Below, piece after piece: positions 8,291 through 15,625 of a DNA stretch of 35,633 bases. Where the stretch lies: assembly GCA_945892755.1 (NCBI GenBank), contig CAMDDO010000029.1:1-35633 (forward strand). The letters are read 5' to 3'. This DNA comes from Rhizobium sp. Q54. GTDB lineage: Bacteria > Pseudomonadota > Alphaproteobacteria > UBA828. Each line of letters begins with the position of its first letter. The stretch's first letter is position 1. The translations under genes and the position numbers were made by a program. The notes beneath the pieces were generated by a model, which saw nothing but the letters and a program-made list of their open reading frames with translations, had not been told where the DNA came from and made no database searches.

Positions 8291-8419
8291 GCGCCGGCTC
8301 GAACCAAGGATCCCTGACGCCCGTGCCGTAAATCGACTTCACAGTCGCGGCGCGGTTGCGCGTAAGCTCGGGGTCCCGTCATCGCTCTGGAGGACGGGGC
8401 GAACCCAGTGTCGTGCGCC

Positions 8420-10132
8420 ATGCCCCAACACTCACCGCTCATCGCGACCATCGTCATCGGCATCGGACTCGCCTTCGTGCTGGGGGCGATCGCCAATCGG
8501 CTGCGCATCTCGCCATTGGTCGGCTATGTGCTGGCCGGCGTCGTGGTCGGTCCGCATACGCCAGGCTTCGTCGCGGACCAGGCGATGGCGAGGGAGCTTG
8601 CCGAGATCGGCGTCATCCTTCTCATGTTCGGCGTCGGGCTGCATTTCTCGTTGAAGGACCTGCTCTCGGTGCGGCGACTCGCGATTCCCGGTGCCTTGGC
8701 CGGGATTGCCCTCGCCACCATGCTCGGTGTCGCGGTTTCGCAGGCGATCGGGTGGAATTTCAGCGCCGGCGTTATGTTCGGCGTCTCGATTTCCGTCGCC
8801 AGCACGGTCGTCCTGACACGCGCGTTGCAGGAACGCCGCTTGCTCAAGACCGAATGGGCGCGCGCGGCGGTCGGCTGGCTGGTGGTCGAAGACCTTGCCA
8901 TGGTGCTGGCGCTGGTGCTCATGCCGGCGCTCGCCGCGCTCAACGGAGCCGGCGAAGCGACTTCCGGCGGGCGCGTGGCGCCGGGGCCCGATCTCGGCGG
9001 CGTTCTCCTTACCCTGGGCATCACGCTAGGCAAGGTTGCCGGCTTTATCGTGGCCACGCTGGTGATCGGCCGGCGTGTCATTCCGTGGATCCTGCACTAT
9101 ATCGCGCACACCGGCTCGCGCGAGCTGTTCCGTCTCGCGGTGCTCACCGCTGCGCTTGGCGTCGCCTTCGGAGCGGCCTTGCTATTCGACGTGTCGTTCG
9201 CGCTAGGCGCATTTCTGGCCGGCATGATCCTAAGCGAATCGCAATTGAGCCAGCGCGCGGCGGACGAGACCCTGCCGCTCAGAGATGCGTTCGCGGTTCT
9301 GTTCTTCGTCTCGGTCGGCATGCTGATCGACCCCGCGATCATCGTGCGCGATCCCGGGCCGGTGATCGCGACCGTCGCGATTATCTTGCTTGGCAAGCCG
9401 GTCCTGGCATTTTTTATCATGCGCGCCTTCCGTCATGGGCCGATGACGGCATTGACCATGGCGGCGAGCCTCGCCCAGATCGGTGAGTTCTCCTTTATTG
9501 TCGCCGGCCTTGCAGTGGCGCTCGGCATTATGCCAGTCGAAGGGCGCGACTATATGCTCGCTGGCGCGATCATCACGATCCTGTTCAATCCGCTCTGGTT
9601 CCTCTTGGTCGAACGCTTTGGGCCGCGCCTCGAGCAACGTCTCCAGGCGCGGTATGGCTCGTCGCTCAGCGCCCAGGCGAGGAGCGAACTGCGGCCGACA
9701 ATGCTGAGCGACCATGCCGTAGTGGTCGGCGGCGGCCGGGTTGGCGGTGTCATCTGCGAGGGCCTGCGCCGGCAAGGCACGCAATATCTCGTGATCGAGG
9801 AACGACAGGAAAAAGCCGACGCGCTGCGCGCGCAGGGCGTCGAAGTGTTATGCGCCAATGCCGCCGAGGCCATCGCGCTCAAGGCGGCCAATGTGGCGGG
9901 CGCTCGCCTGCTTTTCGTTGCCATCCCAAATGGCTTCGAAGCGGGGCAGATCGTCGCGCAAGCCAGCGCGAAGAATCCGTTATTGCGAACCGTGGTACGC
10001 GCGCATTCGGACGACGAGGTCGCCCATCTGCGTCAGCTCGGCGCAAAGCTCATCGTGCTCGGCGAAACCGAAATCGCCACCGGCATGCTCGACGTGGCTC
10101 TTGCCGAGACCGATATTTCGCCGCCGCTATGA
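8420..10132 (+). CDS. ybaL: YbaL/Kef-type K+/H+ antiporter (CPA2 family)
   Basis: The product has 570 residues. About twelve membrane helices fill residues 1-390, including RISPLVGYVLAGVVVGP and LMFGVGLHFSLKDL, both typical of YbaL. A cytoplasmic TrkA-N (KTN) domain follows, with VVVGGGRVGG as the nucleotide-binding loop, and runs to the end with NGFEAGQIVAQA. Kef-type proteins exchange K+ for H+ and are gated by nucleotides or, in KefB/KefC, by glutathione adducts. The start is uncertain. ATG 8420 aligns best with the YbaL N-terminus, but GGAGG at 8389-8393 would fit the GTG at 8408 somewhat better. It is convergent with the broken gene at 10173. A fragment of a second antiporter of this type lies about 0.85 kb downstream. 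Confidence 0.9.
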   Translation: MPQHSPLIATIVIGIGLAFVLGAIANRLRISPLVGYVLAGVVVGPHTPGFVADQAMARELAEIGVILLMFGVGLHFSLKDLLSVRRLAIPGALAGIALATMLGVAVSQAIGWNFSAGVMFGVSISVASTVVLTRALQERRLLKTEWARAAVGWLVVEDLAMVLALVLMPALAALNGAGEATSGGRVAPGPDLGGVLLTLGITLGKVAGFIVATLVIGRRVIPWILHYIAHTGSRELFRLAVLTAALGVAFGAALLFDVSFALGAFLAGMILSESQLSQRAADETLPLRDAFAVLFFVSVGMLIDPAIIVRDPGPVIATVAIILLGKPVLAFFIMRAFRHGPMTALTMAASLAQIGEFSFIVAGLAVALGIMPVEGRDYMLAGAIITILFNPLWFLLVERFGPRLEQRLQARYGSSLSAQARSELRPTMLSDHAVVVGGGRVGGVICEGLRRQGTQYLVIEERQEKADALRAQGVEVLCANAAEAIALKAANVAGARLLFVAIPNGFEAGQIVAQASAKNPLLRTVVRAHSDDEVAHLRQLGAKLIVLGETEIATGMLDVALAETDISPPL

Positions 10133-10962: not shown

Positions 10963-11095
10963 GCCGACCTTCTCGCCGCGGCGAACGTGGCCGACGCGCG
11001 CTTCATCTTCCTCGCGATCGCCAACGGATTCGAGGCCGGTCAGATCATCGCGCAGGCGAATGCGCTCAATCCCACGTTTCGTGTGTACGCCGAGC
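10963..11095 (+). pseudogene. Fragment of a Kef/YbaL-type antiporter KTN domain
   Basis: A plus-strand stretch reads LLAAANVADARFIFLAIANG followed by FEAGQIIAQANALNP. It lines up with the KTN domain of the intact antiporter at about residues 491-533 (KAANVAGARLLFVAIPNG, FEAGQIVAQASAKNP), with roughly 27 of 43 residues identical by eye. There is no upstream membrane part, and the homology stops before the aqpZ stop codon. The difference from the neighbouring gene suggests a remnant of a diverged paralogue, not a recent copy of the intact gene. Confidence 0.72.
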
Positions 11096-11910: not shown

Positions 11911-12483
11911 TTATTGTAGCCAGGTCTCCGACCAGGCGATGCACGACATGCTGGAGGGGTGGCCGGCCATGGCCTCGGGGAATGTGGCACCCGTCGCCGC
12001 GCGGCCGTTGACCGAGAGGCTCGCGCTCGCGGCCGGTATCAGGCAGCTATAGACGCCCCACGCCCCGGTCATCGGGTTATTGGGCTCGACCCGCATAATG
12101 TAGGGCTGGCCGATCTCATGCCAGTTCAAGACAACCCGGCCCTCGGCCGATTCGGCGATTTCGCTATAACCGCTTCGCGTGTCGCCGGCGCGCGAAAAGC
12201 GTGCGGTCACGATCGGCAGACTCTGATCGGAAAATGGCTTCCGATTGACCACGCCTTCGAGCACCTGCACCCAGCGTGCGAATTCGACATTGTCGGAATA
12301 GACCTTGATGCGGCCATCGGTCGCGTCCGAGCGCAAGAACAGCACATGGCCCGGCCCATGCGGCGAGAGCAGCGCGCGCCAATGCGAGCAGTTCGTGGTT
12401 TCCTCGCTCTTGGCGTCGACCTTAAGACGCAGGAACGAGTTTTCGCCGGTGAAGACCACTCGGTTCGGATCGATCGGGGTCAT
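11911..12483 (-). CDS. Hypothetical protein coupled to a molybdopterin oxidoreductase
   Basis: The product has 190 residues, no signal peptide and no membrane helix. It starts MTPIDPNRVVFTGENSFLRL and is rich in beta-prone segments (GHVLFLRSD, GRIKVYSDN, GRVVLNWHE, YIMRVEPNN). I do not recognise its family. ATG 12483 has AGGGAG 10 bases upstream and lies 62 bases inside the end of the molybdoenzyme gene, so the two are probably translated from one message. This suggests a role linked to that enzyme or its substrate. The last 75 coding bases or so occur again, slightly changed, on the other side of aqpZ, so the 3' end has been part of a rearrangement and the true C-terminus may be altered. Confidence 0.75.
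   Translation of the reverse strand: MTPIDPNRVVFTGENSFLRLKVDAKSEETTNCSHWRALLSPHGPGHVLFLRSDATDGRIKVYSDNVEFARWVQVLEGVVNRKPFSDQSLPIVTARFSRAGDTRSGYSEIAESAEGRVVLNWHEIGQPYIMRVEPNNPMTGAWGVYSCLIPAASASLSVNGRAATGATFPEAMAGHPSSMSCIAWSETWLQ
11921..11995. repeat. Right copy of the 75-bp direct repeat flanking aqpZ
   Basis: This copy lies within the 3' end of the hypothetical gene (its coding strand is minus) and matches 10885-10959 at 71 of 75 positions. The four differences are scattered and two or three would change residues, so the left copy appears free of coding constraint. Confidence 0.85.
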
Positions 12484-14602
12484 GTGCGTTCGTCTCCCTG
12501 TTGATTTTCACGGGTGCTTCGGCGCGACGCACCCAGATCGCGTTGTCGTGAAACGCCGCGCCGCCGATCGGCGCGACTGTGTCGGCCCCGGTCAGCGCGT
12601 TCGTGTTCATGCCTTCCTCGAAGGCGCCGTTCGGCATCACACCTTCGACCACCACGACGCCCGGTCGCAGACCGTCGAATAACTCCGCGTACACGACCAC
12701 CGTGCCACGCTTGTTGCCCAGCCTGATGCGTGCGCCATCATCAATACCCAACCGCTTCGCATCCTCTGGATGAATCTTGGCGCGCGGCCGGCCCTCGCGG
12801 TCCTGCGAGGTCGGCGTCTCGGTGAAGCTCGAATTGAGCGTGTTGCGCGCCGGCGCGGTGATCAGCCGAAACGGCATGTCGTCGGTCGGCTTTTCGATCA
12901 CGTCCCAATGATCGGGCAGGTTCGGCATATCGGGTGGCGCGTCGGCCAAGCCGTAGGCGCGCGGCACATATTGCTTCCAATTCGCCTTGAAATGGAACTT
13001 GCCGTCCGCGTGGCCAAAGCCCTTTACATAATGCGCGGTCTCGAAGGGCGGTTGCACGTCGATCCAGCGCTTCGCCTTCAAGGTCACCGCATCGGGATAG
13101 CCCGAGGCCTTCAACGTGTGGTCGATCAAGTCCCACGCGCTCATCTCGAAGCCGGGATGCTTGGCGCCGAGGCGCTTGGCGAGCGCGCAAACGACATCGT
13201 GATTGGACCAGCATTCGCCCGGCGGCTCGATCAGCTTCGGCCCGAACATCACATGCTGATGGCCGCCGCCCGAATAGATGTCGTCATGTTCGAGGAACAT
13301 GGTGGCCGGCAACACGATATCGGCCATCGCCGCCGTATCGGTCATGAATTGCTCATGCACGCAGGTGAACAAATCCTCGCGCGCGAACCCCTTGTGCACC
13401 GCGTTCAGGTCGGGCGCGACGCACATCGGGTTGGTGTTCTGAATCAGGAGTCCGGTCACCGGCGGGCCGCCGCGCAAGGCCTCGCGCTCGCCGAGCAAGA
13501 TCGCACCGACGCGCGATTGATCGAGCCAGCGCACGCTTGAATCGCGCGCATCCAAGCCCTCGATCAGTGTGCGATCCCAGGTATAAATCGCCTCATTGTT
13601 CTTGAACGCGCCGCCGCCTTCATATTGCCAGGCGCCGGTCACCGCCGCGATCGAAAGCGCGGCGTGCATATTGACCGGGCCGTTGCGGCTCCGGGTGAAG
13701 CCGAAGCCGAGTCGGAAGAAGGTCCTCTTTGTCGTGCCGACGAGGTGGGCGAAGGCTTCGATCTCGCCGACGCCGAGGCCGGTCAGCGCGGCCGCCCATT
13801 CGGGTGTGCGTGTCTTCAGATGTGCCTCGAGCTCGCGCGGGGCATCGGTGTAACGCTCAAGATAGGCGCGATCCGCAAGGCCGTCGCGGAAGAGCACATG
13901 CATGACGGCGCAGGCGAGCGCGCCATCGGTGCCGGGCCGGACGCACAGGTGCATATCGGCCTGTACGGCGGTCGCGTTGCGATAGACATCGACAACGACA
14001 AGCTTGGCACCACGCTCTTTCCGCGCGCGCATCGCGTGCGTCATGACATTCACTTGAGTGTTGACCGCGTTGGTGCCCCAGATCACCACCACGTCGGCGC
14101 GCGCCATTTCGCGCGGGTCCGAGCCCATCAGTTTGCCGGTGCCGGCCTCGAAGCCGAGCCAGGCCGGATTGACGCAGATCGTCGACCACCAATTCGAATA
14201 GCGTTTTACGTTCCGCAGCCGCTCGATGCCGTAGAACATCAGCTGGCCCATCGTGCCGGCGAAAAAATAGGGCCAGATGGTTTCCGCGCCATATTGTTTC
14301 TCGCGTGCCAGAAACGCCTCGGCGGTGCGATCGAGCGCTTCGTCCCAGCCGATGCGCGTGAATTGGCGCGAGCCCTTCGGTCCGCTGCGGCGGAGCGGGT
14401 GGAGCAAGCGATCAGGGTGGTGAAGTCGTTCCGCGTAGCGCGCGACCTTGGCGCAGATCACGCCGGCGGTATAGGAATTGTCCGCCGCGCCGCGCACCCG
14501 CCCGATCCGATCGGGCCCGAGCAGCTCAACCTCGAGTGCGCAGGTCGACGGGCAGTCGTGCGGGCAGGCGCTGTAGCCAAGCGTCGGCGCGGCGTTGGGC
14601 AT
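12422..14602 (-). CDS. Cytoplasmic molybdopterin oxidoreductase with one 4Fe-4S cluster
   Basis: The product has 726 residues and belongs to the DMSO reductase superfamily. The N-terminus binds a 4Fe-4S cluster through CPHDCPSTC (residues 10-18) and a later Cys in GVICAK. The central molybdopterin domains include FFAGTMGQ, VVIWGTNAVNTQ and GLLIQNTNPM. A C-terminal molydop-binding domain contains KIHPEDAKRLGI and RGTVVVYAELF. A Cys in STICVNP may be the Mo/W ligand, but this is tentative. There is no twin-arginine signal, so the enzyme should be cytoplasmic. Substrate and electron partner are unknown; no electron-transfer or membrane subunit is adjacent. ATG 14602 is preferred over the TTG at 14638, with GGGGGA 10 bases upstream. 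It is divergent from two usp genes across an FNR-like box. Confidence 0.88.
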   Translation of the reverse strand: MPNAAPTLGYSACPHDCPSTCALEVELLGPDRIGRVRGAADNSYTAGVICAKVARYAERLHHPDRLLHPLRRSGPKGSRQFTRIGWDEALDRTAEAFLAREKQYGAETIWPYFFAGTMGQLMFYGIERLRNVKRYSNWWSTICVNPAWLGFEAGTGKLMGSDPREMARADVVVIWGTNAVNTQVNVMTHAMRARKERGAKLVVVDVYRNATAVQADMHLCVRPGTDGALACAVMHVLFRDGLADRAYLERYTDAPRELEAHLKTRTPEWAAALTGLGVGEIEAFAHLVGTTKRTFFRLGFGFTRSRNGPVNMHAALSIAAVTGAWQYEGGGAFKNNEAIYTWDRTLIEGLDARDSSVRWLDQSRVGAILLGEREALRGGPPVTGLLIQNTNPMCVAPDLNAVHKGFAREDLFTCVHEQFMTDTAAMADIVLPATMFLEHDDIYSGGGHQHVMFGPKLIEPPGECWSNHDVVCALAKRLGAKHPGFEMSAWDLIDHTLKASGYPDAVTLKAKRWIDVQPPFETAHYVKGFGHADGKFHFKANWKQYVPRAYGLADAPPDMPNLPDHWDVIEKPTDDMPFRLITAPARNTLNSSFTETPTSQDREGRPRAKIHPEDAKRLGIDDGARIRLGNKRGTVVVYAELFDGLRPGVVVVEGVMPNGAFEEGMNTNALTGADTVAPIGGAAFHDNAIWVRRAEAPVKINRETNAHDPDRSEPSGLHRRKLVPAS

Positions 14603-14664
14603 GGCCCCGGGGTCCCCCGAAAGAGCTTGGCGCACCAAGCGTCTCGGCCATTGTCCTCGGCTCC

Positions 14665-14678
14665 ATGATTTGGATCAA
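14665..14678. promoter_or_regulatory. FNR/FixK-like binding site
   Basis: ATGAT-TTGG-ATCAA matches the consensus TTGAT-N4-ATCAA at 9 of 10 defined positions and is followed by AGGC-like bases often seen with such boxes. It lies in the divergent gap between the molybdoenzyme (ATG 14602) and the first usp gene (ATG 14738). Its centre is about 66 bases from the usp start codon and about 70 from the other, so it could act on either. Control by an oxygen-sensing CRP/FNR regulator is inferred. Confidence 0.62.
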
Positions 14679-14737
14679 GGCATAGCGCGCCCGACAGGGC
14701 GAGATTACGGCGACATATACGGAATGGAGGTCGCCCC

Positions 14738-15181
14738 ATGTTCAAGCGAATCGTGCTCGCCTATGACGGCTCGACCCATGCCAAGCGGGCGTTAGACGCT
14801 GCGATCGAGATCGCGACCAAATTCGGCGCCGCCCTCGATGTCGTGCAAGTCGTCACCCACGCCCACGCCCCCGAGGCCGTGGCGGCGTTCGCGCGGGCCG
14901 AGCAGGTCGAGAACCCCGATCAGATCGAGCTGGCCAAATGCGCGGCCAGCAATCTTGCGCCGGCCGCGACTCAAGCCAGGAAGAAGGGGGTCAAGTCCGT
15001 CAATGTTGAAGTTCTGCGCGGTGAAGCGGCCGGCGAGACGCTGAATTATGCCAGAGCCAATGGCGCCGATCTCATCGTGCTCGGCCGGCGCGGCTTGAGC
15101 CGGGTCGGCGGCCTCATGCTCGGCAGCGTCTCGGCCAAGATCGCCGGGCAGGCCGACTGCGCGGTCTTGACCGTCAAATAG
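14738..15181 (+). CDS. Universal stress protein UspA family (first of two)
   Basis: The product has 147 residues and a single Usp domain. The N-terminal strand reads FKRIVLAYDGS, with the Asp that contacts ATP. The C-terminal ATP-binding loop LGRRGLSRVGGLMLGSVS matches G-x2-G-x9-G-S, so this is the nucleotide-binding type. Usp proteins are cytoplasmic stress and starvation factors, and in many proteobacteria they are induced by low oxygen. ATG 14738 has GGAGG 7 bases upstream. The second usp gene starts 18 bases after the stop, so both are likely one operon, probably under the FNR-like site about 60 bases upstream. Confidence 0.93.
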   Translation: MFKRIVLAYDGSTHAKRALDAAIEIATKFGAALDVVQVVTHAHAPEAVAAFARAEQVENPDQIELAKCAASNLAPAATQARKKGVKSVNVEVLRGEAAGETLNYARANGADLIVLGRRGLSRVGGLMLGSVSAKIAGQADCAVLTVK

Positions 15182-15199: not shown

Positions 15200-15625
15200 A
15201 TGTTCAGGCACATCCTGCTGGCCTATGACGGCTCGGTCCATGCGAAGCACGCTTATGACACCGCGGTCGATCTGGCGTTGAAGTTTGGCTCGAAGCTCGA
15301 GATCGTCCAGGTCGAGGCGCACCCGGTCGCCTCGAACTGGGTGGTCGAGGTCGGCCGGAGCCCGGTCGGCGAGATGGCCAGATGCGCGGCCCTCGCGCTC
15401 GCGCCGCTTTGGAGCGAAGCGCGCTCGCGCGGCGTCAAGGACGTCAGCGGCGATTTGCTTCATGGCGAGCCGGCGCACGAGATCGCCAGCTACGCCAAGC
15501 AGAGCGGCTGCGATCTGATCGTCATGGGGCGGCGCGGTCGCGGGCGAGTCGAGGGCTTGTTGCTCGGCAGTGTCTCGGCCCACCTGACCGGCCACACGGA
15601 TTGTCCGGTGCTGACCGTCAAATGA
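15200..15625 (+). CDS. Universal stress protein UspA family (second of two)
   Basis: The product has 141 residues and one Usp domain beginning FRHILLAYDGSVHAKHAYD. The ATP-binding loop MGRRGRGRVEGLLLGSVS is intact. It is a paralogue of the preceding protein, and the two could form homo- or heterodimers. ATG 15200 has GGAGG 5 bases upstream, and only 18 bases separate the genes. The stop is convergent with the DUF427 gene ending at 15636. Confidence 0.93.
   Translation: MFRHILLAYDGSVHAKHAYDTAVDLALKFGSKLEIVQVEAHPVASNWVVEVGRSPVGEMARCAALALAPLWSEARSRGVKDVSGDLLHGEPAHEIASYAKQSGCDLIVMGRRGRGRVEGLLLGSVSAHLTGHTDCPVLTVK

Follow-up and report, generated by a model that had tools for sequence, protein, structure and literature searches.

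At this locus two universal stress protein genes and a molybdoenzyme gene are read away from each other across a short gap, and near the middle of that gap lies a palindrome resembling the target of FNR-type regulators, which raises the question of which neighbour such a site would serve and whether it could serve both. The window, by which we mean the whole 35.6-kb stretch of DNA that was analysed, presents the following arrangement.

12422..14602, minus strand: divergent molybdopterin oxidoreductase, 726 aa, Pfam PF00384, PF01568 and PF04879
14665..14678, no strand assigned: candidate FNR box ATGATTTGGATCAA (ATGAT-TTGG-ATCAA), 9/10 defined positions, matrix score 19.0
14738..15181, plus strand: usp1, universal stress protein, 147 aa, Pfam PF00582, E 5.1e-33
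15200..15625, plus strand: usp2, universal stress protein, 141 aa, Pfam PF00582, E 6.1e-32

The gap between the molybdoenzyme start codon, which ends at 14602, and usp1, which starts at 14738, measures 135 bp (14603-14737). The letters and coordinates that a sequence-only reading had claimed for the box inside this divergent gap are correct, and its single departure from TTGAT-N4-ATCAA is an A for T at the first base. An ATGAT half-site, ATGATgtcgATCAA, is given for ccoNOQP of R. sphaeroides in PMC2908626; a first-position A therefore occurs in bound regions.

Counting mismatches to the plain consensus did not discriminate genome-wide. The window holds one site with at most one mismatch (0.45 expected; at least one in 34 of 100 shuffles) and the 3.27-Mb genome 113, two of them perfect, and the loci inspected among about the first 50 of the 113 listed seemed by a crude test to lie mostly inside long open reading frames; the reversed pattern used as control in the genome scan made an unfair background, TAG being frequent in its words. 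Since mismatch counting was only suggestive, we derived a scoring matrix from FnrL-bound sites of R. sphaeroides, using 24 of 28 rows of the table in PMC2908626 and leaving out four that all scored under 1613.5 in that table. These 24 score between 15.9 and 24.0, and the box, a TTGAY-N4-RTCAA-like palindrome, falls among them at 19.0, with 11.9 for the runner-up in the window; sites like it are expected 0.067 times per 35.6 kb and 0.00023 times per 135-bp gap under a first-order Markov background. We thus predict that the box is very probably a genuine FNR-type site.

Conservation is the strongest sign that the box exceeds chance. In a genome of the same genus, G002 (record VGET01, Alphaproteobacteria bacterium isolate K_Offshore_80m), the order of divergent molybdoenzyme (84% identical), usp1 (80% identical) and usp2 is the same, and the gap, 142 bp long, has diverged from that of the window apart from a single block.

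14665..14682, no strand assigned: conserved block ATGATTTGGATCAAGGCA, 18 bp, identical in G002

The longest common block in 500 shuffled pairs was 12, vs 18 for the window and G002, and on both sides of ATGATTTGGATCAAGGCA the alignment of the flanks stayed within the range of their shuffles. The exact gene arrangement is common to these two genomes only; variants of the box are also present in other genera.

Read across genomes, the sequences place the box on the usp side. From 321 relatives in a scan of genome contigs we kept 80 usp homolog loci, 17 of them alphaproteobacterial, with groups assigned from record titles. A site with at most two mismatches lies within 200 bp upstream of 8 of the 17 alphaproteobacterial loci (0.4 expected), and one with at most one mismatch at three of them (0.02 expected); sites with at most two mismatches occur at 2 of 22 beta/gamma loci (0.6 expected; the twenty-third, L108, was left out for too little upstream DNA) and at 5 of 40 others (3.7 expected). 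Six of the ten alphaproteobacterial usp loci with a promoter of their own score at least 15.9 by the matrix (L085, L087, L090, L091, L099 and L131), all six boxes beginning 67-82 bp upstream of the start codon, and none of the seven loci with a co-directional gene just upstream does so. Intermediate scores were found at L093 (14.2, in the co-directional set), L086 (11.9) and L088 (10.2), and no box by the matrix upstream of L100 and L148, so that four of the ten own-promoter loci fall under 15.9. L085, L086 and L087 are G002, G003 and G007, and L088 is apparently G019; these loci are therefore not additional genomes. FNR and usp1 do not fully track each other, because G014 has three FNR matches and no usp1 match at E<=1e-15.

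The spacing of the predicted promoter elements is that of an activator site for usp1. Aligned on the box, eleven promoters (nine usp, the window included, together with the ccoN and hemN boxes described below) give a -10 profile that peaks at offset 37, that is, 29.5 nt from the box centre, with a mean of 2.73/6; the peak persists without the window and L085, and its height was reached at any offset by none of 5000 shuffles. An initial -10 guess at offset 39 (GATTAC/TATAAC/CATATT) was displaced by offset 37 in these hexamer profiles. A spacing of 29.5 nt corresponds to a class II site at -41.5, and we therefore predict the usp1 start at 14713.

14701..14706, plus strand: predicted -10 of the usp promoter, GAGATT, at class II spacing (29.5 nt to the centre of the box)
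14703-14708, plus strand: alternative -10, GATTAC
14713..14713, plus strand: predicted usp1 transcription start (A), from spacing, with the box centre at -41.5
14726..14730, plus strand: Shine-Dalgarno-like GGAGG before usp1, read from the sequence

GAGATT is weak by itself (3/6), the predicted leader is 25 nt long, and a sigma-70 scan for promoters came up empty on both strands. With usp2 beginning 18 nt after usp1, the two genes are probably on one transcript. The earlier proposal that usp genes are low-oxygen targets of such regulators is in keeping with the recurrence of the box before alphaproteobacterial usp genes, with the class II spacing of the -10 and with a published uspA target.

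A candidate for the regulator is encoded in the same genome. PF13545 matches occur in nine places, four of them above the cut-off, and six of the nine were read (L001-L004, L007 and L009; L005, L006 and L008 were left out). L001 has C-x2-C-x7-C near its N-terminus, differing from the C-x2-C-x5-C of an aligned solved FNR chain, plus another Cys that aligns with a Cys of that chain, and we infer that these cysteines are cluster ligands. Its helix IETVSR aligns to VETISR of the solved chain; E-x-x-SR is the recognition-helix motif of FNR regulators. Among solved structures L001 is closest to FNR chains and to FixK2, with E values from 4.3e-35 (an FNR chain) to 3.8e-33. L001 stays below the NCBIfam cut-offs (FnrL 174.7 vs 300; Fnr 143.7 vs 228), so we name it FNR-type and go no further. 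The helices of L002 and L003 differ from that of L001, and L004, L007 and L009 lack a CRP/FNR look when their translations are read. The box had been described as FNR/FixK-like; the FNR part of that description stands, and because the regulator carries cysteines FNR is a better name than FixK. FNR-type regulators also number two in G007 and three in G014, with a box, ATGATCTGAATCAA, near one in each (L184 and L185).

Similar boxes stand before other genes of the genome. A search for the motif before respiratory genes, suggested in the sequence-only reading, finds one at the ccoN operon, where the open reading frame leading into ccoN is preceded by TTGATGCAAGTCAA (20.6), and further boxes stand before hemN (20.5) and before fnr itself (16.4). 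A second hemN match, L187, which is under the cut-off, has no box, so that three of the four loci examined carry one. At hemN, class II spacing would make the predicted start coincide with its first ATG, which counts against that site or that start codon.

From these observations we consider it very likely that the box is the class II FNR-activated promoter element of a usp1-usp2 transcript. At low oxygen, the FNR-type protein L001 would retain its iron-sulphur cluster, dimerise and bind 14665-14678; the dimer, at about -41.5, would help RNA polymerase to start near 14713, and both universal stress proteins would then be produced, while the molybdoenzyme would not be activated from the box.

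The molybdoenzyme itself is formate dehydrogenase-like in a family search, yet far below every listed NCBIfam cut-off. It has a Cys in ICVNPAWLG and no His there; formate dehydrogenases carry Cys/Sec-His at the position of this Cys. A paralog, 59% identical, is found at G000:C12, and a 190-aa minus-strand open reading frame with no Pfam match (11911-12483) shares about 60 bp with the 3' end predicted for the molybdoenzyme gene. Elsewhere in the window, 10972-11082 encodes 37 residues that match the TrkA-N part of an antiporter (8408-10132) at 70% identity, and this stretch is probably left over from a duplicate.

Regulation of this enzyme from the box, and with it a role for its reaction under oxygen limitation, had been suggested from the sequence. 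Among 27 of 30 molybdoenzyme upstream regions (L049-L051 were left out), only those of the window and G002, one genus, hold a site of at least 15.9. G010 (98% complete) and G016 (86%), in which FNR has no match at E<=1e-20, keep the molybdoenzyme, and G014 has the molybdoenzyme and three FNR matches with no box upstream of the enzyme. The minus-strand hexamers at the class II offset, ACGCTT (window) and TCCCGG (G002), match at 1/6 each, so that no class II -10 is present. Because the box tracks usp, because genomes lacking an FNR match keep the enzyme and because no -10 stands at the class II position on that strand, the box is silent on the enzyme under oxygen limitation and gives no information on whether its reaction matters there; the molybdoenzyme is probably not activated through it. 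An alternative minus-strand promoter can be drawn speculatively around a hexamer nearer the box.

14650..14655, minus strand: speculative molybdoenzyme -10-like GACAAT, offset 24, 4/6, with TTGATC in the box as -35 and a spacer of 17

Neighbouring genomes suggest how enzyme and box came to adjoin. In G007, from another genus, molybdoenzyme, pcm, box, usp and a metX-like gene follow one another, with pcm facing the box, and in G003 pcm lies opposite usp across a degenerate palindrome, ATGACCCAGGTCAT (11.9); the gene is called pcm from a reading of its protein. In G010 usp and box are absent, and the molybdoenzyme is about 250 bp from a metX-like gene, the interval retaining no more than a short pcm-like tail, LPVAFVPFTGSNR. 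Such pcm-like C-terminal tails stand just before the molybdoenzyme at L027 (G010), with LPVAFVPFTGSNR, and at L030 (G014), with STIVPFTGTKS only, and thereby indicate deletions at the locus; usp1 has no match at E<=1e-15 in G010, G014 or G016. The simplest account would be an ancestral block of usp, box, pcm and molybdoenzyme from which pcm was lost in the genus of the window, whereas G010 would have lost usp, box and most of pcm. The molybdoenzyme thus probably adjoins the box because the intervening pcm was lost in this genus.

Three other accounts of the box can be weighed on the evidence already given. That it is a functionless match draws on the mismatch counts, by which a third of window shuffles (34/100) hold such a site and the genome holds 113, but the matrix expectation of 0.00023 per gap, the identity of the box in G002 and the boxes that precede other usp genes, similarly placed and with the same -10 spacing, make chance very improbable. 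A different member of the CRP/FNR family, of FixK or DNR type, might use the site in place of an oxygen-sensing FNR, as PMC2908626 treats the target sequences of FNR, FixK and DNR as shared and has usp products in its DNR and FNR sets; we regard this as improbable, given that L001 alone among the six PF13545 matches read combines an FNR-type helix with cysteines. Low-oxygen activation of the molybdoenzyme together with usp is quite improbable. The box centre lies 66.5 and 69.5 nt from the two start codons, and this near-equidistance means that distance alone is no bar to dual activation; against it stand the 1/6 match at the minus-strand class II position in both genomes, the restriction of the site to two of 27 molybdoenzyme upstream regions in one genus, and G010, G016 and G014, in which the enzyme goes without an FNR match or, in the last, without a box.

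An arrangement with two outputs from one site, in which FNR would activate usp1-usp2 and block a molybdoenzyme promoter so that the enzyme would be produced in air and off at low oxygen, is unlikely, though less so than these three. TTGATC within the box pairs with GACAAT across a spacer of 17 in the window, its G002 counterpart being TTGATC-18-TACAAA (-10-like hexamers 4/6 each), and since the -35 would then be inside the box an effect of FNR there is more likely to be repression, which has precedent in the '-' rows of the table in PMC2908626, where FnrL is negative at some targets. Yet this promoter was drawn post hoc, reaches 8/12 at best, falls below the threshold of the promoter scan (0 found) and differs by 1 in its spacer between the two genomes, and the molybdoenzyme side shows no significant conservation outside the box. 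The historical form of this idea, that loss of pcm put the molybdoenzyme promoter under an ancestral usp box, with one FNR dimer turning usp on and the enzyme off, we hold to be rather unlikely; if true, such a two-way switch would clearly exemplify how regulation can be gained through the loss of a neighbouring gene. Activation of usp1-usp2 from a class II FNR site, the account we prefer, would extend the oxygen-dependent stress response of cultured alphaproteobacteria to an uncultured lineage, and would illustrate that lying between two divergent genes does not by itself make an FNR box informative about both.

An FNR box before a usp gene is an ordinary arrangement in this bacterial class, and the usp part of the locus is already a known type because uspA FNR sites are published (PMC2908626, PMC7713065). 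The core FNR regulon predicted for alphaproteobacteria in PMC2908626 includes uspA, and differential-expression tables for microoxic Bradyrhizobium include several universal stress proteins (PMC6515984). A narrow literature search for a divergent molybdopterin oxidoreductase and universal stress protein with FNR did not find this pairing. Like the window, R. sphaeroides has an FNR box before an alphaproteobacterial usp gene, its uspA (RSP0697) site TTGACatggATCAA lying under an FnrL ChIP peak (PMC2908626). In contrast, the same peak there also covers ccoNOQP, with fnrL close by (PMC2908626), whereas in the window usp1-usp2 adjoin the molybdoenzyme, and neither fnr nor ccoN is on the same contig. 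Similarly, uspA of Sphingopyxis granuli TFA (SGRAN_3353) has a class II Fnr box centred at -41.5, as predicted here, although that usp gene is monocistronic and its site is supported by expression, while the one in the window is predicted (PMC7713065). Further parallels are G007 (SI073_bin108) and G003 (CSMAG_1188), which share with the window the same usp family, a box before usp and a metX-like gene further downstream, but in which the divergent gene is pcm, followed in G007 by the molybdoenzyme and separated from usp in G003 by a box degenerate to 11.9.
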